Assembly: GCA_014359855.1 (NCBI GenBank)
Contig: JACIYQ010000215.1
Span: 1-33,502 of the forward strand
DNA length: 33,502 bases
Direction: 5' to 3'
DNA from: Parvibaculum sp.
GTDB taxonomy: Bacteria > Pseudomonadota > Alphaproteobacteria > Parvibaculales > Parvibaculaceae
Below are positions 21,299-32,165 of the stretch, piece after piece; position 1 is the stretch's first letter; every line of letters starts with the position of its first letter. The position numbers and the translations under genes are program-made. A model generated the notes under the pieces. It searched no databases. It was given only the letters and a program-made list of their open reading frames with translations, and was not told the origin of the DNA.

Positions 21299-24208
21299 CT
21301 ACAGCCCGAGACCCCGGCCCCGGCCAAGCCCGAACGTGAGGGTGAGGTCGCGGCCGACCCCCATTCCCGAATCGAATGAGATGCCGAGTTCCCGCTTGCG
21401 GCCCGCCAGAAGGGACTCCATCTGCGGGTCGCGTTCCAGGCTGTGCGCCATGTTCCCCATTTCCGCCCGCGCGGCCCTGTGACCGGCATAGTCGCCCGCT
21501 GCATATCGTTCGTCGCTGGCCCTGTGGAGATTTTGCCAGCGTTCCACGAAACGGTCGGCGCGCAGGTCGGGATCTGTGCGTAGCTCGGTTTCCAGTTGCA
21601 GGGCGCGGATTGCGCGCCGGGCGTCGCCGGACGCCGCCTCCGCCGCAAGCTCCGGGTTTTTCTTGTAGGCGGCTTCGGCGTCGTGCGAGCCGTGGGGGCG
21701 CACCTCCTCGAACCGCTGGCGCGCCTCCTGCAATTCCCTGATCTGATCGGGGCTGGCCTTGCCGCCCTGGCCCTGCGCCTCGAAGATCGCATCCACGGCG
21801 CGGGCATGACACACGAGTGCCTTGGTGCGGGCCTTGCGCAGGGCCTCTGCCGGGTCTTCTTCCACCTTCCTTTCCGGCCCTTGCTCGCCCTCGGTGGGCA
21901 GGTGCAACCCGTCAAACATGCCGCGCACCTTCTCGGGAACCTGCTTGACGATCTCGACAACCCGTTCCACGCGCTCGCGGAAGGTGATGCCGCGCCGCTC
22001 GGCGTAGCTCTGTGCCGGGTCGTAATCCGTCGCCATGTCCTTGGCGCGGTCGCGCGACAGGGTGCGGACAAGCCTGCTGTCGTCGGCGAAGTCATCGCGG
22101 CCGTAATGCAGGTCCATGCCGTCGCGGTGGCGCGACAGGGCGACATAGCTGCCGTGAGCGTCCAGGCCCGGCGTCGCCAGAACATGGATGCGGTCCACGG
22201 TCATGCCCTGCGCCTTGTGGATGGTCGCGGCATAGCCGTGGTCGATGCGGTCGTAGTCCTTGAAGTCAAACGCGACGCTGCGCCCGTCGTCGGTGCGCAC
22301 GGACATGGATCGTTCGCTGACCTCAACGATGGTTCCGAGCGTGCCGTTCTTCACGCCAAGGCCGCGCTCGTTTTGCAGGAACATGACGCGATCTCCGCTG
22401 GCGAAACTGCGTTCGCCGCGCTCGACGGTCAGGTGAACGTCCTCGCCCAATTCGCCCGTTTCCCGCATCCGCTCGCGCGCCGCCTCGTTGAGCGCGCGCA
22501 CCTCGTCGTTGGTGTGGGTGAGGATGATGCGGCTCTTGTCGGGCGCTGCCTGCCGCTCGCGGTCCCAGCGGTCGATCAGATCGTCGCGCGCCTGCTCGCG
22601 TGTCTGCGCTTCATGCACCATGCCGTGACTGTCATAGGCATGGATCGCTTCGCCCGTCCGGCCGGCCGCCAGGTCGCGCGTGGCGTCGCGCTGCCAGTCC
22701 TCGTGCTGGCGGCGCACCTCGCCGATCTCCGCCCCGCCGTGGCGCTCGTGAATGGAGCGGAACGCCGCGCCCGCCTCGATGGATTGCAACTGTTGCGGAT
22801 CGCCGACCAGCACCACCTTCGCACCGGCCTCGGCGGCATGGGACAGCACGCGCTCCAACTGGCGCGTGCCGACCATGCCCGCCTCGTCGATCACCAGAAC
22901 ATCGCGCGCGGTGAGCACGTCGCGGCCCTGTCCCCAACCGTGCTCCAGGCTGGCGATGGTGCGTGACGCGATGCCCGATCCACTTTCCAGATTCTCGGCC
23001 GCGATGCCGGACAGCGCCACGCCCCGGACCTCGTAGCCCGCCGCTTCCCAGGCTTCGCGCGCCACGCCCAGCATCGCGCTCTTTCCCGTCCCGGCATAGC
23101 CAACGACGATGCCGAGATCGCGCCCGTCCGTGACATGCGCCAGCGCCTCAGCCTGCTCGCCGGACAGGACAAGGCCGCGCGCTTCCGCACGCGCCAGCGC
23201 CGTTTCGCGATCCGCATCACGCACGCCATGGCGTTCCGTCTCGGCCATGAGTTCGGCGGCGCGGTGCAGGCGCTGCTCGGCCTCGATCATCTTGGCTGTG
23301 GTGAAGCGGTCCTCGCCGCGTCCGTCCGCGCCGAGTTCGACCAGGTCGGGCGCGCTCCGTATTGCGCCCATGACCTCGTTGAACTGCTCGATCCCGTCGC
23401 TGTGCCGGTGCGCGAACATCGCCATGTCGCGCCGCGTGAAGGTGGATTGCTGATGCGTGATGGCTTCCAGCGCGATGGAAGGATCGGCGATGATCCGCAC
23501 ACCGTTGTTGCGCGCGATCTCGCGGTGCATTTCCGCGCGGTCGGCGGCCTCGATCCCTTCGCCCTCGATCCGCTGCGCGGGTGCGCCGATCTGGCTCTGC
23601 GGCTCCAGCGCGATGCCCTGCGCCTCCAGGCTGCGATGGTCGATGCGCGCGTCGATGTCGAGTTCGGCCAGACGCTCGTTGGCCAGCTCCGCCCAGCGTT
23701 CGCGCCAGCGCTCCACCATCTCGGTACGGTTCCAGTCCCGCACCTTCTGGCCGAAGCCGTTTTCGTCCACGGATCGCATGGTGAGCATGACATGGGCATG
23801 GGGCCTGGGCGTCCCGTCCTCGGCCATATCCCAATGCACATTGAGGTCGGCGATCATGCCCTGATCGACGAACTCCGCCTGCACGAAGTCGCGGGCGAGT
23901 TCGATGCCCTGCGCCCGCGTCATCTCGCGCGGAATGGCGAACTCGATCTCGCGGCAAAGCTGCGCGTCCTTCCGTTTCTCGAAGGCTTCGACATCGTTCC
24001 AGAGCCGTTCGCGGTCGTTCCATTGCTCCGGGGCGTTCTCCGGCAGCATGACCTCGGAATGGACGACGCCGCGCTTGCTGGAAAAGTCGTGGCTGCGCTC
24101 AATCCGGTCGTCGCGCAGCCGCGAGGCCGAGCGGTAGGCGGCGGAGGCCACCGCGCTGGAGCCGGCCTTGCGGCCGATGACCTTGACGTGAAGATGATAG
24201 ATCGCCAT
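21299..24208 (-). CDS. traA: Ti-type conjugative relaxase TraA (MobA/MobL relaxase + RecD-like helicase)
   Basis: MAIYHLHVKVIGRKAGSSAVASAAYRSASRL, PRPHAHVMLTMR, Walker A VVGYAGTGKSAMLG, VLVIDEAGMVGTRQL. Confidence 0.95.
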   Translation of the reverse strand: MAIYHLHVKVIGRKAGSSAVASAAYRSASRLRDDRIERSHDFSSKRGVVHSEVMLPENAPEQWNDRERLWNDVEAFEKRKDAQLCREIEFAIPREMTRAQGIELARDFVQAEFVDQGMIADLNVHWDMAEDGTPRPHAHVMLTMRSVDENGFGQKVRDWNRTEMVERWRERWAELANERLAELDIDARIDHRSLEAQGIALEPQSQIGAPAQRIEGEGIEAADRAEMHREIARNNGVRIIADPSIALEAITHQQSTFTRRDMAMFAHRHSDGIEQFNEVMGAIRSAPDLVELGADGRGEDRFTTAKMIEAEQRLHRAAELMAETERHGVRDADRETALARAEARGLVLSGEQAEALAHVTDGRDLGIVVGYAGTGKSAMLGVAREAWEAAGYEVRGVALSGIAAENLESGSGIASRTIASLEHGWGQGRDVLTARDVLVIDEAGMVGTRQLERVLSHAAEAGAKVVLVGDPQQLQSIEAGAAFRSIHERHGGAEIGEVRRQHEDWQRDATRDLAAGRTGEAIHAYDSHGMVHEAQTREQARDDLIDRWDRERQAAPDKSRIILTHTNDEVRALNEAARERMRETGELGEDVHLTVERGERSFASGDRVMFLQNERGLGVKNGTLGTIVEVSERSMSVRTDDGRSVAFDFKDYDRIDHGYAATIHKAQGMTVDRIHVLATPGLDAHGSYVALSRHRDGMDLHYGRDDFADDSRLVRTLSRDRAKDMATDYDPAQSYAERRGITFRERVERVVEIVKQVPEKVRGMFDGLHLPTEGEQGPERKVEEDPAEALRKARTKALVCHARAVDAIFEAQGQGGKASPDQIRELQEARQRFEEVRPHGSHDAEAAYKKNPELAAEAASGDARRAIRALQLETELRTDPDLRADRFVERWQNLHRASDERYAAGDYAGHRAARAEMGNMAHSLERDPQMESLLAGRKRELGISFDSGMGVGRDLTLTFGLGRGRGLGL

Positions 24209-24367: not shown

Positions 24368-24706
24368 ATGGAGACGACGATGCGCAAGCCACGGGACTTC
24401 GACACGGAACTGAAGTCACTGGAGGACAAGGCAAAAGACCTGAAAGCCCGCAAGGTGCAGCAGCTTGGCGAGCTGGTCATCTCCACCGGAGCCGATGCCC
24501 TCAGTGCCGAGGAACTGGCTGGCGCGCTGATCGTGCTGGCCGAAACCAAAGACGCCGGAAAGAGGGAGGCATGGGCGAAACGCGGCGCGGCGTTCTTTCA
24601 AGGGCGGTCACGGCGATCTGCATCGGCGCCTGACCGCGACGTTGGTGGCGCTCAACCGCAACCGGGCAGCCCGCAACCGGCATCAGGGGGCGCGGGCGCG
24701 GCATGA
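24368..24706 (+). CDS. Conjugal transfer TraC-like protein (alternative ATG at 24380)
   Basis: MRKPRDFDTELKSLEDKAKDLKARKVQQLGELVISTGADALSAEELAGALI; divergent from traA. Confidence 0.75.
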   Translation: METTMRKPRDFDTELKSLEDKAKDLKARKVQQLGELVISTGADALSAEELAGALIVLAETKDAGKREAWAKRGAAFFQGRSRRSASAPDRDVGGAQPQPGSPQPASGGAGAA

Positions 24707-24974
24707 CATGCGCACTTGGCAGGTCGAACGCCGCAAGCGCACACGGCATCTGATCGAACTCGGCGGCCTCGTGGTCAAGGCCGGGATCGTGGACCTGACG
24801 GGTGATGATCGCGCTATGATCTACGGCGCGCTGCTCTGGATGGCCGACAAGTTGCTGAGCGAGGACGGCGAACGGGTGCGCGGCATCTGGATAAAGCTGG
24901 GAAAGATGGCGTTTGAGGCGGATCATCCAGCAGACACGCATGGCAGGACGAGACCGCCGCAGGACCGGGCGTGA
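24642..24974 (+). CDS. Conjugal transfer TraD-like protein
   Basis: MRTWQVERRKRTRHLIELGGLVVKAGIVDLTGDDRAMIYGALLWMADKL; overlaps the TraC-like ORF. Confidence 0.75.
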   Translation: MVALNRNRAARNRHQGARARHDMRTWQVERRKRTRHLIELGGLVVKAGIVDLTGDDRAMIYGALLWMADKLLSEDGERVRGIWIKLGKMAFEADHPADTHGRTRPPQDRA

Positions 24975-25006
24975 AGGAGCGAGGCTCCGCCTCTGACTGG
25001 TGACAA

Positions 25007-27361
25007 TCAGGGGCGCACGTGAACGCCAACCTTCATTGGAAGCCGCAAACGATCCGCAAACCGGGCGTCGAGCTTGCCGGATATCTCGCCGAAATAGGCG
25101 CGATCATCTTCGAGAACAGACAAGATTGTCTGCGTTTGAGCGGTAAGCGCCGCGATCAGCCGTTCAAGCGGACCTCGTAATGCACCCGCTTTCTTGTGCG
25201 AGAGGACTGCCGTCTGCGCGGCCTTCGCCGCCCAATTCGAGAGCGCAAGATATTCAAGCACTCGCTGTTGCTCGGACTCATCCGGCTCAACGGTCAGGCT
25301 TTGCAACGCCCTTGTCGCGCCGAAATGCTGTAGCAGCAATCGACCGATCAGACGCGGCCAGTCGTAACCTTCCGCCGTATATACGGGAAGGATTTGCGAA
25401 GGTGAGAATGAACCCGATAGGGGCTGCGCGTGAGAGAGAATGATCTGCATGAGCGCGCGAAGTCTGACCATCTCCGATGTCGTGATCTTCTTTTCCGAGA
25501 GTGCCTTGCACCGAGTCTCGAAAGCGGTGACGGCCTCTTGAAACTTCTTGGCGGTCGCGCGGCTTTGCGCCGAAAGTGATCTGGTTGGGGATGCTCTTTC
25601 CGTGCGCGCGTTACCGCTTCGGTCATCATCTGCCGATTGCGGTTCTGTGGTTCGGAAATCTATCGCACCAAGAGCATCGATGTCCTCATCTTCCATGCCT
25701 CTCAAATCAGGGCCGACCAAGCCGATCATTTGATTAAGACAGACGCTCATCAAACTGGCCGCGCTATCGTGGCGACTATTCAGATATAGCCCGAACGATT
25801 TGCCTTGCGCGTTCGCATGGGTGCGCGCACGGATAAAATCATCGTATGAAAGGACTTCATATGTCGGCGGCGCAGCATCGGGGGCTTGCGACTTGGCTCG
25901 CGGCGTTTGGTCGGGCTGGCTTGCGCGATCTTCTTCCTCCAACGCTTCGAGCTGATTGAGCGTTTCGATCAGAACCAAATCTTCGTGGATGGATTCCACG
26001 AGCGTATCCATCAGCCGCCGCTTGCGCCCGCGTTGCGCAGGCAAGGTTGTCACGGCGAGATAATCAAGGTCGACGATTTGGACCGGGGCCGACATCGCGC
26101 CGTCCGCGAATGCCACGATGCCATATTTGGGACGCTGGGCGTCGGGCGAAACCACGTAGCTCGCCGAACTGCCGTTCGATTCCATCTCCGCCAAAGCTAA
26201 TCCATCGCGGTCATAGAGTTGGATCGTCGCCGGGGCCGCCGACGACGCTGCCGGGGTGGTCCATGACAATTTCCCCGCCTGCAATATCAAGGTGCCGCCA
26301 TCTATCGAAGGCTCCGCCTCCTTGGCCTCCTCGAATGATTGCTGAAGCTCCGCGAGTTGATCGCCCTCAATGCGGGCATCTTTATAATCCGCCAGTCCCA
26401 ATGCTTCCAAGGCTGCACCGCGCGGAACGCGCTTGTAGATTCCTGCTTCCGCATTTCCGTGGGCTGCCGGTCCCATCAAGGCCGGGAACGTGCAATTCAT
26501 GCTGCCGGAAATCACATGGTCCCAGCGTTCACCGTGGACGACGATGAGCTTTGCATGAAGGAATCGGCTCTCCGCGTGCGCGCTGACATCGAACAAAGAC
26601 GTATCTGAAAGTCCCGACAGCGCAGCTGAGGGGAAACCGTTTGCATCGCTCTCGATCAGAATATCAGTGATGGGATTTTCGAGCGCCGCGCGGAGCCGTG
26701 CCAATCCTTCAAGCCGCACGTCCCAATAGGGCGACACGATGACAAGCCGTTCAATCGGATCATCGCCTATGGATGCGATGATCTGATCGAGGCAATTGAT
26801 CTCCGGGCGGTCGAACAAGAGATTGAGTTCTGCCGTTCCCGCTCTATCGAACGTGTGATCGAAATTATCATCACGCAACCATGAAGCGAATCGCAGCGCC
26901 CGTTGCAGGCTGATCGGAAACCATTGATCGTCCAGCGGCACATAGCGCCGAAAATATCCAAGCGCGCTTTTGAAAAACTTCGCGTTCTCCTGCGTCTCCG
27001 GCGAATATGAGATGCTGGCGATCTGCTCCTTGTTACCGCCAAGGCCGAGAGCGGTCAGGTTTGCCGAACCTACGGTCAACCGACCTTTGGTCTCGCCGAT
27101 CAACATCGTAATTTTGGGATGGAAAGCGCCCGGCGCGTCGGCCTTGATGAGATGGTAGCTGGTTCCGGCAAAGCGCGGCGGTCCAAACTCCGAAAAAGCC
27201 TGATTGAGCATCCCCCTATCGGCGAGGACGGTGATGTTGCGACATCCGGCACCTCGGAGCTTCGGAAACGGTATATCCTCAAAGGCGAGCGATCCGAACG
27301 CATAGGTCGTCATGAACGCCGAATGGAATCCGCCTTCGCCAAACGCTTCAAAATACTTCAT
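25007..27361 (-). CDS. Phospholipase D-like (two-HKD) protein, 784 aa, function unknown
   Basis: Two HKD-like motifs: FHPKITMLIGETKGRLTVGSANLT and FLHAKLIVVHGERWDHVISGSMNCT; start overlaps upstream stop (ATGA). Confidence 0.8.
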   Translation of the reverse strand: MKYFEAFGEGGFHSAFMTTYAFGSLAFEDIPFPKLRGAGCRNITVLADRGMLNQAFSEFGPPRFAGTSYHLIKADAPGAFHPKITMLIGETKGRLTVGSANLTALGLGGNKEQIASISYSPETQENAKFFKSALGYFRRYVPLDDQWFPISLQRALRFASWLRDDNFDHTFDRAGTAELNLLFDRPEINCLDQIIASIGDDPIERLVIVSPYWDVRLEGLARLRAALENPITDILIESDANGFPSAALSGLSDTSLFDVSAHAESRFLHAKLIVVHGERWDHVISGSMNCTFPALMGPAAHGNAEAGIYKRVPRGAALEALGLADYKDARIEGDQLAELQQSFEEAKEAEPSIDGGTLILQAGKLSWTTPAASSAAPATIQLYDRDGLALAEMESNGSSASYVVSPDAQRPKYGIVAFADGAMSAPVQIVDLDYLAVTTLPAQRGRKRRLMDTLVESIHEDLVLIETLNQLEALEEEDRASQPDQTPRAKSQAPDAAPPTYEVLSYDDFIRARTHANAQGKSFGLYLNSRHDSAASLMSVCLNQMIGLVGPDLRGMEDEDIDALGAIDFRTTEPQSADDDRSGNARTERASPTRSLSAQSRATAKKFQEAVTAFETRCKALSEKKITTSEMVRLRALMQIILSHAQPLSGSFSPSQILPVYTAEGYDWPRLIGRLLLQHFGATRALQSLTVEPDESEQQRVLEYLALSNWAAKAAQTAVLSHKKAGALRGPLERLIAALTAQTQTILSVLEDDRAYFGEISGKLDARFADRLRLPMKVGVHVRP

Positions 27362-28896
27362 GCGGTCGCCATCTCCGCGCGGCCGCGTTCCGTGATTCCG
27401 TTCTCATCAATGAGGCTGATGTCGCGCAAATACCGGAGCGCCTGATCCAGCCGCGGGCTGCTTGGCGAAACCCGAAAGTGGCTGCGGTAACGTAGCTGCC
27501 CTTCTTCCGGCTCCATGTGGAAGGTGTATGCCTTCTGGTTTCGGAATTTGCGGGACGCGACCCACATATGGCGCTTTAGAATCCGCTCGCGGATCAAATC
27601 CGCGATCACGCGGCTCGCCGAAACTGCACGAGCGCGATCGAGAAATTGCACTTCCGTCCGTAGCGACTGAAAATAATCCGCGCCGCTTAGCGCCTCCTCG
27701 ATCAAATTCGTGGCCGCCGATGACCTGTCATAGAGGATCGCGATTAGTGATACGGCGAGGCGCACCTGTTCTGCCGTTTCACCTTCCTCCATCGCGGACA
27801 GCATGGCCTGAGCATGTTCGCGCGCCGCCGTTGCTTCATCGGCAAGGCCAAACGAAAAATCCTCCCACGTTTGATCGCCCGCAATTTCAGCGAAGCCGAT
27901 CAGTCCGTCTGTGAGGTCGGCAAGAGTCATCCGGCGTCGTGGCGCTGTTTCTAACAAGGTCAGCGCGGCTGACAGGATCGCCTCATAGGCAAGACGCACA
28001 AGATCGCAGGCTTGATACAGAAACCAGAGATGCGGAACCTCGCGGGCGTTGCCGCCCTGCAAATTCGGCACGTTCTCAAACCAATGCCATTTCACCTGCT
28101 CGGCGCGCGGGATCGAGCGCGAGGTCGCGACTACATCGAGGAGCATTTGAAGCGTGCTGCGCCGCATCCTATCCGTCTCGCTGCGCGTGTCGCTCTTCCC
28201 CAACAGAATCTCTGTCAGCAAAATATGCTCATCGCTGTCTTGTTTGAGCTGGTTCGGCTTCATGGCCTCGAACGATTTCAGGGATGGCAGAGCGATTTTC
28301 CCGGCTGCCACCACTTCAAAGAACTCATCCGCTGTTGCGCCAAGCTCCCGCGAAAAAGCGTCCGCCAACTTCAAGGCAACATCGGAACACACAGGATTGG
28401 GGTTTGGATGGCCCGCACCGGGGAAATGAATCAGTCCCATTTCCGACATTTGCGTTGCGTAAATCGCGCCGAACGCGCCGCCCTTGTTTCGCAGATAGCG
28501 CAGACTCTCATCGGTATTGGGATCGGCACCGACGCTGAAATCTATGATTGCCGCTTCACTGGATTGGGCGCGCGCGTCGCTCAGCGTTCGGTTGGCCCAG
28601 TCGGACCCCGTAATGCCCAATTCGCTTTCGCCGTATGTGCAGATAAGCGCGAAAAGCGCCTCGCATCGGCGCTGAAACTTTCGAAACTCATTGGGATCAG
28701 AATGTCTGATCTTTTCTTCGTAGTGTCTCAGTATGAAGGGAAAGAACGAGTAATAGCGATAGCGCAGCGTGATCGTGCTGATCCCCGGCACAATTGACTG
28801 ATAGATGACTTCTATTGGCCGCTGCATGCCGAGCGGGTCGAGGCCACTGTCTTGACCGAGTTCGGTCCATTCTGGAAATCCATACCCTAAGTCCAT
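27358..28896 (-). CDS. Uncharacterised 512-aa protein (possibly a distant DUF6361-like relative), first gene of operon with PLD protein
   Basis: Full ORF starting ATG at 28896; motif PGISTITLRYRYYSFFPFILRHYEEK; 4-bp overlap with the PLD gene. Confidence 0.6.
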   Translation of the reverse strand: MDLGYGFPEWTELGQDSGLDPLGMQRPIEVIYQSIVPGISTITLRYRYYSFFPFILRHYEEKIRHSDPNEFRKFQRRCEALFALICTYGESELGITGSDWANRTLSDARAQSSEAAIIDFSVGADPNTDESLRYLRNKGGAFGAIYATQMSEMGLIHFPGAGHPNPNPVCSDVALKLADAFSRELGATADEFFEVVAAGKIALPSLKSFEAMKPNQLKQDSDEHILLTEILLGKSDTRSETDRMRRSTLQMLLDVVATSRSIPRAEQVKWHWFENVPNLQGGNAREVPHLWFLYQACDLVRLAYEAILSAALTLLETAPRRRMTLADLTDGLIGFAEIAGDQTWEDFSFGLADEATAAREHAQAMLSAMEEGETAEQVRLAVSLIAILYDRSSAATNLIEEALSGADYFQSLRTEVQFLDRARAVSASRVIADLIRERILKRHMWVASRKFRNQKAYTFHMEPEEGQLRYRSHFRVSPSSPRLDQALRYLRDISLIDENGITERGRAEMATA

Positions 28897-28979
28897 TCAA
28901 ACACCGCCCTTTTTGTTCTTCGTTATATCGCTGAACTATGGTGTCGGCGCAGGAAGGGAAAGCAAGCGTTCGAGGACGG

Positions 28980-29840
28980 CTAGACTCCAAACCGTTCCCG
29001 CATTTCCCCGGCTTTCGCCCATTCGTCACCGGGTATCAGGTCGATTAGTTCGTTCATCACTTTGACGAAGGTGGCCTTGAGCGTCTCGTCGTTTAGCGCC
29101 TTGGCGCGATCTGTCTGAAGCAGCGGGCGCATGTCGGTGAAGAAGGTTGGATTGGCGAGTTTCTGGAACATGCGCTGCTGCGCCTCGGCCCTGGAAATCG
29201 TCACCTCCGACTTTTCAAGATAGAGCCGGAAACATTCGATGATCCGGGTCGTGTTCAACCCCTCGAACACGGTGAGCGCGTGATCGAGGTCGAACAGATC
29301 GCGGCCCTTGTTACGCTGAAGCAACGCCCGCAGCTTGGTCGCCAGCATTTCCTCCCGCGAGAAGGTCGGAATCGCCGCCTCGCCGGTGAACCACGGGTTT
29401 TCGATGCCGAACGGAATCTCGATGGGGGGATCGTAGGCTTCCCGCTCGCGCGTGTTGATTTCGACCTTGAGGTTGATGCGCGCATCGGCGGGCTCGCCTT
29501 CCGCATCGACGCGAAAGCGGAGTTTGGGAGCGACGGGGCTTGGACCGGACTTTGCCTTGCCAAGCCACGGTTCCAGTACGGTGCGAACACCGTCGAGGAC
29601 TGGCCCAATCGGGCCGGCGGTCGTCCGCACGAGGTCTATATCTTCCGAATACCGCAGCGGCGCCGGGAAATGCAGCTTGTTGAGCGCCGTGCCGCCACGG
29701 AAGCGCAGTTCGCCGCGCAGGAACGGATCGGAGAAGATGGTGACAAGCGCGCGGCTGATGATGAGGTCTTGCTCGACCTGCCGCTGGCTTGCCCACGGCG
29801 CGACGCGGCTCCAGGCGGTGATGTAGTCCTGCGGGATCAT
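28980..29840 (-). CDS. AbiEii-type nucleotidyltransferase toxin
   Basis: FRGGTALNKLHFPAPLRYSEDIDLV nucleotidyltransferase motif and MLATKLRALLQRNKGRDLFDLDHAL. Confidence 0.9.
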   Translation of the reverse strand: MIPQDYITAWSRVAPWASQRQVEQDLIISRALVTIFSDPFLRGELRFRGGTALNKLHFPAPLRYSEDIDLVRTTAGPIGPVLDGVRTVLEPWLGKAKSGPSPVAPKLRFRVDAEGEPADARINLKVEINTREREAYDPPIEIPFGIENPWFTGEAAIPTFSREEMLATKLRALLQRNKGRDLFDLDHALTVFEGLNTTRIIECFRLYLEKSEVTISRAEAQQRMFQKLANPTFFTDMRPLLQTDRAKALNDETLKATFVKVMNELIDLIPGDEWAKAGEMRERFGV

Positions 29841-30664
29841 TCGTCGATCTCCGGCGGTCGGCGAACAATCACGCGCCAGTGGTCATCGCGTTCGGACGGC
29901 GGCGGCGACAAATCGGGATCGCCAGCCTGTTTGGGATCGAGTTCGACCCACGGCAGCGGCCCGCGCGCCGAGAGCGCCGCGAACATCGCGTCCGCTATCT
30001 GCGGATGCCCCAGCCTTCCGAGCAGATGCCCAAGGCGTTGCACCACCGCTTTCTCGAAGGCACCCGACAGGGAGGCGAGCTTTTCCGGTTGCAGCCGTTC
30101 GGCAAGCTCGGAGAGCACCGTCGCGATGTTGTCCAGGCCCGCGCCGGATTGCGGGTAGCGCACCAGATCGAGCGCCGTGAGTTCCGGCGAGGACAGCTTC
30201 ATATAGCCCGATTGCGTCTTGCGATCCTCGATCCCCGCCGCCACCGCCGCCATGTCCTTGCGGTAGGAAAAGACGATCCGCGTCCGTCCGGCCTCGATGT
30301 CGGGCAGGAGCTTGTCCGTGACGACCTGAAATTCCATGACGGCCTGATGGGAAGCGCCGTGAGCCGTCGCCGCGGCCAGCAGCCCCACATAGTAGGGCCG
30401 TTTTTCGTGGCGCATCAGGGCGTCGATGTACCACTCAGGCGGCGGCGCTCCCGTCGTGGCGTGCTGTGGCGGTACGACCACGTAGAAGCCGCGCCGGGGC
30501 CGGATGAGTTGGCCGCGCCGCTGTAATCGCTCGGCGGCGTCGAGGAATGCGCCCCGACTGATGCCGATCTCCTTCTGCGCCTCATCCGCAGAAAAGACTC
30601 CCCGGCCCGCAGCAAGCAGGCCGGAAGCGTAGGAGGCCAAGGCTGATCGTTCGACTCGAATCAT
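29837..30664 (-). CDS. AbiEi-type antitoxin / transcriptional regulator
   Basis: N-terminal winged-HTH-like region plus YYVGLLAAATAHGASHQAVMEFQVVTDK; 4-bp overlap with the downstream toxin. Confidence 0.88.
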   Translation of the reverse strand: MIRVERSALASYASGLLAAGRGVFSADEAQKEIGISRGAFLDAAERLQRRGQLIRPRRGFYVVVPPQHATTGAPPPEWYIDALMRHEKRPYYVGLLAAATAHGASHQAVMEFQVVTDKLLPDIEAGRTRIVFSYRKDMAAVAAGIEDRKTQSGYMKLSSPELTALDLVRYPQSGAGLDNIATVLSELAERLQPEKLASLSGAFEKAVVQRLGHLLGRLGHPQIADAMFAALSARGPLPWVELDPKQAGDPDLSPPPSERDDHWRVIVRRPPEIDE

Positions 30665-31071: not shown

Positions 31072-31502
31072 CGAACGAAGCCGACACGTGCCGAAAATTC
31101 GTCGTGCCCAAGCTGCAATCCGCCGGTTGGGATAGCGACCCTCATTCCATCGCCGAGCAGCGCACCATCACGGATGGCCGCGTCATTCCCGTGGGCAAGG
31201 GTTTTGTCCGCAAGCCACCCAAGCGGGTTGATTACCTGCTGCGCTTTACGCGGGATTTTCCGCTCGCCGTGGTCGAGGCCAAGGCCAGCTACAAATCAGC
31301 GACCGATGCCGTGCAGCAGGCCCGCGATTATGCGGAAATCCTCGACCTCAAATACGCCTACGCCACCAACGGCGCCGAGATCATCGAGATCGACTATTTC
31401 AAGGGGACGGAAACGCGCGTTGCCGACTTCCCCACACCTGATGACCTTTGGCGGCGCTATGGCTCGTCGAAAACTGTCACCCATGTCTCCGAACACCTGT
31501 AA
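31068..31502 (+). pseudogene. HsdR-like (type I restriction endonuclease) N-terminal nuclease fragment, 3' truncated by IS sequence
   Basis: EADTCRKFVVPKLQSAGWD..HSIAEQRTITDGRV...KRVDYLLRF..FPLAVVEAKASYKSATDAVQQARDYAEILDLKYAYATNG; frame ends inside IS-end repeats, no helicase part follows. Confidence 0.85.
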
Positions 31503-31514
31503 CCCTTGTCTCCG
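31475..31514. repeat. IS-terminus-like tandem motif TGTMACCCWTGTCTCCG (two copies)
   Basis: TGTCACCCATGTCTCCG 31475-31491 and TGTAACCCTTGTCTCCG 31498-31514. Confidence 0.6.
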
Positions 31515-31528
31515 GTCCATACACCTCG

Positions 31529-32165
31529 ACGGGCATGGCCTTTGCGGCGGTGACGTCGTTGACTTTGGCTGCCGTCACCGCCGCATAGATCGGCCGCTCG
31601 GCGCCTGCGTCATAGATGACATGGACCTTGGCACCGCAGGCCCTGGCCGAGAAGCGCGCCCAGCCGCTCCCCTGGCCGCTCAGGCGGACGCCGGTCGAGT
31701 CGATGAGATAGACAGCCTCGTCGACGGCACGGCGCAAACCCCGTTGCGCGCCGGCGACCATGGTCGCGAACAGCTCGCCGAACACCGCCGAGGAACGCCG
31801 GGCGTTGGTATCGGCAAGCGTCGAGCGCGAGGCCGGCTTCGCCCCACATGATAGAGCCGCGCCGCATGGCTCTCCAGGCCGCCGGCGATCTCCCGCAGGC
31901 TCGCCGCACCGGAAAGCTGGCCGTAAAGCAGTGCGATGAACTGGCTCCGGGTCGAAAGACGGCGAACATGCTTGTCGGCCCCGTGCTCCGCCACCAGCCG
32001 GTCGAAAACAGCCCACGGAACATGCTTCAAGAGATCGTGGAAAACGCTATTGTGATGCCGCACGGTGTTGGCTCCGATTTTGTGTCCAGGAGACGCGCAA
32101 ACGTCTGAACACAAATAGAATCAACACCGTGCAGCCAGTCCAGAAATCTAAACCGGACAGCAGTG
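31529..32165 (-). mobile_element. Degraded IS4-family-type insertion sequence: frameshifted, 3'-truncated transposase
   Basis: VRHHNSVFHDLLKHVPWAVFDRLVAEHGADKHVRRLSTRSQFIALLYGQLSGAASLREI in one frame, continuing as SRSTLADTNARRSSAVFGEL...LIDSTGVRLSG...YAAVTAAKVNDVTAAKAMPVE in another; outer end CACTGCTGTCCGGTTTAGATTT. Confidence 0.82.

Follow-up and report, generated by a model that had tools for sequence, protein, structure and literature searches.

In this study, we show that two adjacent genes, A and B, on a Parvibaculum sp. contig form a real, mobile unit, and that this pair is a new, helicase-less two-gene variant distantly related to the Azaca defense system (ZacABC). Judged by sequence comparison, A is remotely homologous to ZacA, a DUF6361 protein, and B to ZacB. 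We think it likely, with a probability of roughly 0.6, that the two genes constitute a self-contained mobile defense module related to Azaca but without ZacC, in which B would be the nuclease and A would provide recognition or restraint. In the window, by which we mean the whole stretch of 33,502 nucleotides that was analyzed, the pair lies in the following setting.

21299-24208, minus strand: traA relaxase gene (NCBIfam E 0), on the opposite side of the pair from abiE
24380-24974, plus strand: two small traC/traD-like ORFs, identified by eye
24974-28955, no strand: transferable unit holding A and B only, the longest stretch common to relatives with differing flanks (BLASTN against L002-L007)
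25007-27361, minus strand: gene B, an ORF of 784 amino acids
27358-28896, minus strand: gene A, an ORF of 512 amino acids
27358-27361, minus strand: ATGA shared by the stop of A and the start of B, a 4-nt overlap read from the sequence
28980-29840, minus strand: abiEii of AbiE (PADLOC E ~1e-102)
29837-30664, minus strand: abiEi of AbiE (PADLOC E ~1e-102)
beyond abiE, plus strand: hsdR remnant of the EcoAI type, an N-terminal fragment of 144 aa (NCBIfam E 1.6e-43)

The genes abiEi, abiEii, A and B are co-directional in the window, all on the minus strand, and the ATGA shared by A and B makes their translational coupling likely. The coupled gene arrangement, the adjoining AbiE and restriction remnant, and the lack of a helicase or methyltransferase gene adjoining the pair in the window are all as the first-pass annotation had described them. 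A scan for promoters and terminators gave output at chance level, and comparison of the integrase region with the region at 31 kb found no direct repeats as att sites. The similarity of the window to L001 and to L002 ends in both cases at the identical base, 31050, beyond which the window carries the hsdR remnant and L001 and L002 carry the start of a gene that reads by eye as a different DNA methyltransferase. Since different restriction-modification (R-M) genes lie past 31050, this site looks like a cargo slot that exchanges R-M genes. Overlapping ORFs at 31477-32114 (minus strand), which by eye read as a broken IS transposase, adjoin the truncated hsdR.

The pairing of A and B is highly conserved. 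A single-protein search returned eight close relatives of A, and B follows A in all seven substantial loci (L001-L007), of which L002 comes from the cultured Methylocystis silviterrae and L003 from the cultured Sphingomonas canadensis. When the set is extended to 28 loci, A immediately precedes B in 27, the two genes always overlapping at their ends, and in 21 of these 27 the overlap is exactly 4 nt; the one remaining locus (L020) has the reverse order, B then A. The distance matrices of A and B over the 28 loci correlate with r = 0.98 (permuted maximum 0.475 in 2000 permutations), a value that includes shared ancestry and is by itself no proof of interaction. Among 399 Pseudomonadota genomes, the six full-length matches to A and six matches to B (E <1e-60) came from the identical six genomes, the window's own included, so that the pair occurs in ~1.5% of the sample; full-length ZacB of Azaca occurs in ~1% (4/399). 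A PLD protein of genome G224, more distant from B, gave a seventh match and is adjoined by a PDC-M27C-like helicase. By BLASTN, the stretch shared with L003-L007 extends at most over 24981-28944, which leaves less than 100 bases to either side of A and B, and the sequences flanking it are unrelated; with L001 and L002 the window has more of the element in common. Moreover, dN/dS of A and B against the diverged relatives is 0.07-0.11, with B versus L006 as an outlier at 0.21, and comparison with the near-identical L001 says little; these low values indicate that both genes are maintained by purifying selection. More distant pairs were recovered by plasmid searches from Pseudomonadota, Bacteroidota and Halobacteria.

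There are variations on this arrangement. In L078 (6393-9789) B precedes A beside brxA, and the B ORF there holds the second PLD motif only, so it may be broken or frameshifted. Two Sphingopyxis plasmids (L012 11331-11906 and L013 11325-11900) carry a third ORF (~191 aa, hypothetical), which shares 4 nt with the end of B and is possibly an accessory gene. Truncated or fragmentary A genes occur at L079 5527-7101, L062 7989-8270 (approximately the first 60 residues only) and L008 149-595; the one in L079 lacks B and lies beside an integrase and a CTP synthase. The phage collection searched with A contained no match, and four scans of viral contigs yielded a few loci, which are only putatively viral.

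The relationship to Azaca first appears in PADLOC matches that are weak and partial, for A to ZacA at E 5.6e-6 over residues 36-103 only and for B to ZacB at E 2.7e-14. Azaca genomes were therefore taken for comparison, namely the four with full-length ZacB. Profile-profile alignment (hhalign) joins A to ZacA at 87% (E 3.7e-6, residues 15-99) and B to ZacB at 98.6% (E 9e-16, residues 1-307), the latter including both PLD half-sites, and the A profile matches ZacA of L049 at E 1e-11. The homology of A to ZacA is limited to ~85 N-terminal residues, in which the motif GLDPLGMQ...PGIST-x-TLR-x-RYYSFF aligns. The examined ZacA proteins match Pfam DUF6361 (E 7e-81, 5e-97) or the ZacA model, whereas A stays below detection by Pfam DUF6361, which none of the 18 A family members reaches. 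An earlier impression that A weakly recalls DUF6361 proteins was hence right at a remote level, ZacA being a DUF6361 protein. The pair and Azaca have in common the gene order A then B. They differ in size, with A at ~510 aa against 390-440 aa for ZacA and B at ~780-870 aa against 620-710 aa for ZacB, and B cannot be aligned to ZacB past ~307; B is a homolog of ZacB and not its full-length equivalent. ZacB forms a clade of its own (support 0.995) in a tree built from the N-terminal parts, where the placement of the L020 and G224 proteins is uncertain. The pair had been put forward as undescribed, which in the strict sense does not hold because both proteins are homologous to two Azaca subunits. 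However, Azaca possesses the ZacC helicase and the pair does not, so the pair falls outside Azaca as this system is defined; identity with canonical Azaca was rejected for want of this defining partner.

Millman et al. 2022 is reportedly the source of the identity of Azaca with ZacABC. For this identity we rely further on the PADLOC names and on a paper in which ZacC is listed as the Azaca helicase, of the SF1/SF2 type (PMC12278908). Another paper lists a PLD-like domain for Azaca and cites Millman et al. 2022 for the system (PMC10952713), and a 2026 review places Azaca among systems of unknown mechanism (PMC12926258). These three papers and PMC12629846 make passing mention of Azaca only, and a literature search on ZacABC and DUF6361 returned nothing relevant.

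Gene B passes the Pfam PLDc_2 cutoff (E 7e-9, 36 bits vs 27), as do all 18 B members of the first family alignment. It contains two HxK half-sites, each with a conserved N downstream, as is characteristic of the PLD superfamily.

27017-27121, minus strand: first PLD half-site of B, residues 81-115, HPKITMLIGETKGRLTVGSANLTALGLGGNKEQIA, with columns invariant in 28 homologs
26441-26557, minus strand: second PLD half-site of B, residues 269-307, HAKLIVVHGERWDHVISGSMNCTFPALMGPAAHGNAEAG, with columns conserved in 28 homologs

The first half-site follows the pattern H81-x-K83...S99-x-N101...N110-x-E112, for which B reads HPK...VGSANLT......NKE, and H81, K83, S99, N101, T103, N110 and E112 are invariant in all 28 B homologs. 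The second follows H269-x-K271...G286-S287-x-N289...N303-x-E305, for which B reads HAK...SGSMNCT...NAE; here H269, K271, G286, S287, N303 and E305 are invariant in 28/28, and N289 is kept in 27, the exception being one archaeal member. The first-pass annotation had read these as two HKD motifs. Two PLD motifs are indeed present, but the aspartate at K+5 is absent from both half-sites in every one of the 28 homologs, so the motifs are of the HKN type and not those of phospholipase HKD proteins. The motif of Tdp1 likewise lacks the HKD aspartate, and B resembles Tdp1/NgoFVII-type phosphodiesterases in its HxK...N motifs. This likeness is at the level of fold or motif only, as B, unlike them, carries extra regions in its middle and at its C-terminus and is constantly paired with a partner gene. 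In a structure search NucT, Zucchini and Tdp1 were among the best matches to B, although with E >0.001 and from a low-confidence model (pLDDT 56), for which reason they were used as support only; the PDB sequence search gave weak matches to Tdp1 alone, and one B family member matches the PLD domain of the restriction enzyme NgoFVII. The earlier suggestion of a nuclease-type PLD component is supported. The companion suggestion of a lipase is unlikely to be correct, considering that the HKD aspartate is missing, that the maximum 19-residue hydropathy of B is 1.24 with no transmembrane-like segment, and that nucleases or Tdp1 come closest in fold. Secondary structure in the same low-confidence model suggests a beta-rich middle region (~357-431) and a helical C-terminal region (~594-772).

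Gene A is less informative. It passes no Pfam family, and neither a fold search of the PDB with its AF2 model, which is all-helical (pLDDT 79), nor a PDB sequence search gave a meaningful or useful match. Its maximum 19-residue hydropathy is 1.42, with no transmembrane-like segment. One of the 18 A family members gives a wHTH match, and the C-terminus of A is possibly a winged helix.

Two further systems were compared and rejected. Identity with PDC-M27, a PADLOC candidate system, was dismissed since B matches PDC-M27B only weakly (E 1.2e-9), A matches no PDC-M27 model, and no counterpart of the helicase PDC-M27C adjoins the pair. DISARM was set aside because its DrmA helicase, DrmB and methyltransferase are missing beside the pair in the window; the PLD-type DrmC is matched by B at E 2.5e-6 over ~40 residues only.

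Given the homology of A and B to ZacA and ZacB, the pair might be an incomplete Azaca that needs a helicase encoded elsewhere, either ZacC-like or borrowed from a neighboring system such as Zorya or type I R-M. SNF2 or UvrD helicases do lie near the pairs in L011, L014, L052 (UvrD-type) and L055 (SNF2 and UvrD-type), but such genes are found near some pairs and not others, so that none of them is a constant partner. Moreover, the ZacC model, which finds a full-length match in all four Azaca genomes (in the examined Azaca loci an SF2-type helicase of 1044-1129 aa), finds none adjoining the pair and none in the six pair-bearing genomes, of which the window's own is 72% complete and the other five 100%, and close relatives retain A and B alone when the flanks change. 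Dependence on an outside helicase therefore seems quite unlikely to us. Besides a divergent PLD protein (ZacB E 3e-16), the G224 locus (L057 3267-9470) encodes a helicase resembling SNF2/PDC-M27C and a protein of 434 aa that matches no family; this architecture is possibly an intermediate one.

The first-pass annotation had proposed a check for recurrent co-occurrence in defense islands, and the neighbors of the pair are mostly defense genes. Recognized defense genes lie beside the pair in ~12 distinct neighborhoods, a raw count and not an enrichment against random loci. They comprise AbiE in the window and in L012/L013, type IIG (L003), type III R-M (L004), a type II methyltransferase (L005), SIR2-HerA (L007), type I R-M (L009, L015, L018), Zorya (L011), a type III methyltransferase with HNH (L053), helicases of the UvrD type (L052) or of the SNF2 and UvrD types (L055), and BrxA (L078). 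No clear defense gene was recognized near L016, L017, L019, L054 and L056. The traA relaxase and the traC/traD-like ORFs abut the pair in the window, so its position is at that end of a conjugative element where DNA is processed, with oriT possibly close by. Many homologs are found on conjugative or mobilizable plasmids as well, and together these observations could speak for a DNA-processing or maintenance role in such elements with no part in defense. We consider this very unlikely, as the pair also occurs in R-M, BREX-type and SIR2-HerA neighborhoods where no transfer genes were seen.

We propose for B the role of a tandem PLD-fold phosphodiesterase. Its two HxK/N/E half-sites probably unite into one active site, a fusion that is only inferred as the B model is poor, and an HxK histidine may act as the nucleophile by analogy with other PLD nucleases. 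B would cut nucleic acid that enters the cell with a phage, a plasmid or a conjugative element. Translational coupling would produce A in a dose matching B, and A probably binds B, supplying recognition or restraint. On present sequence evidence B is thus probably an anti-MGE nuclease controlled by A, and we infer an A-B complex in which A may serve as the sensor of the signal.

How A would exert this control separates two further possibilities. If it is by recognition, the pair could be a modification-dependent, type IV-like restriction system in which A reads modified phage bases and B cuts, with no need of a methyltransferase or helicase. This would agree with a pair that has neither a methyltransferase of its own nor a conserved neighbor, with the possible wHTH of one A member and with the NgoFVII match of one B member. 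Searched with Pfam, however, neither A nor B shows a domain that reads modified bases, such as SRA, YTH or EVE, and we regard this version as unlikely. If it is by restraint, A might keep B inactive until infection, whereupon B would degrade host nucleic acid indiscriminately in an abortive-type response. The likely coupling with A first and the strict co-inheritance would suit a restrainer-effector pair, and the truncated A without B in L079 fits the idea that B is the costly one of the two. Nevertheless, both proteins are large, unlike those of usual toxin-antitoxin pairs, and an indiscriminate response of this kind seems to us an unlikely account too.

Our preferred reading remains a self-contained mobile defense module, and because its PADLOC-DB 2.0.0 matches are only weak and partial, it is probably missed in genome annotation. 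More tentatively, and at somewhat below even odds, such pairs may represent a helicase-independent, two-protein PLD-nuclease immune system, spread over bacteria and archaea, that works on its own and needs no methylation, helicase or ATPase, and from which Azaca arose by gain of ZacC, or which arose from Azaca by its loss. If active, the pair would serve as a simple model of Azaca, one in which the nuclease-type subunit and the partner protein are open to study with no helicase present, and it would raise the question of how a PLD nuclease without a methyltransferase or ATPase distinguishes self from foreign DNA.
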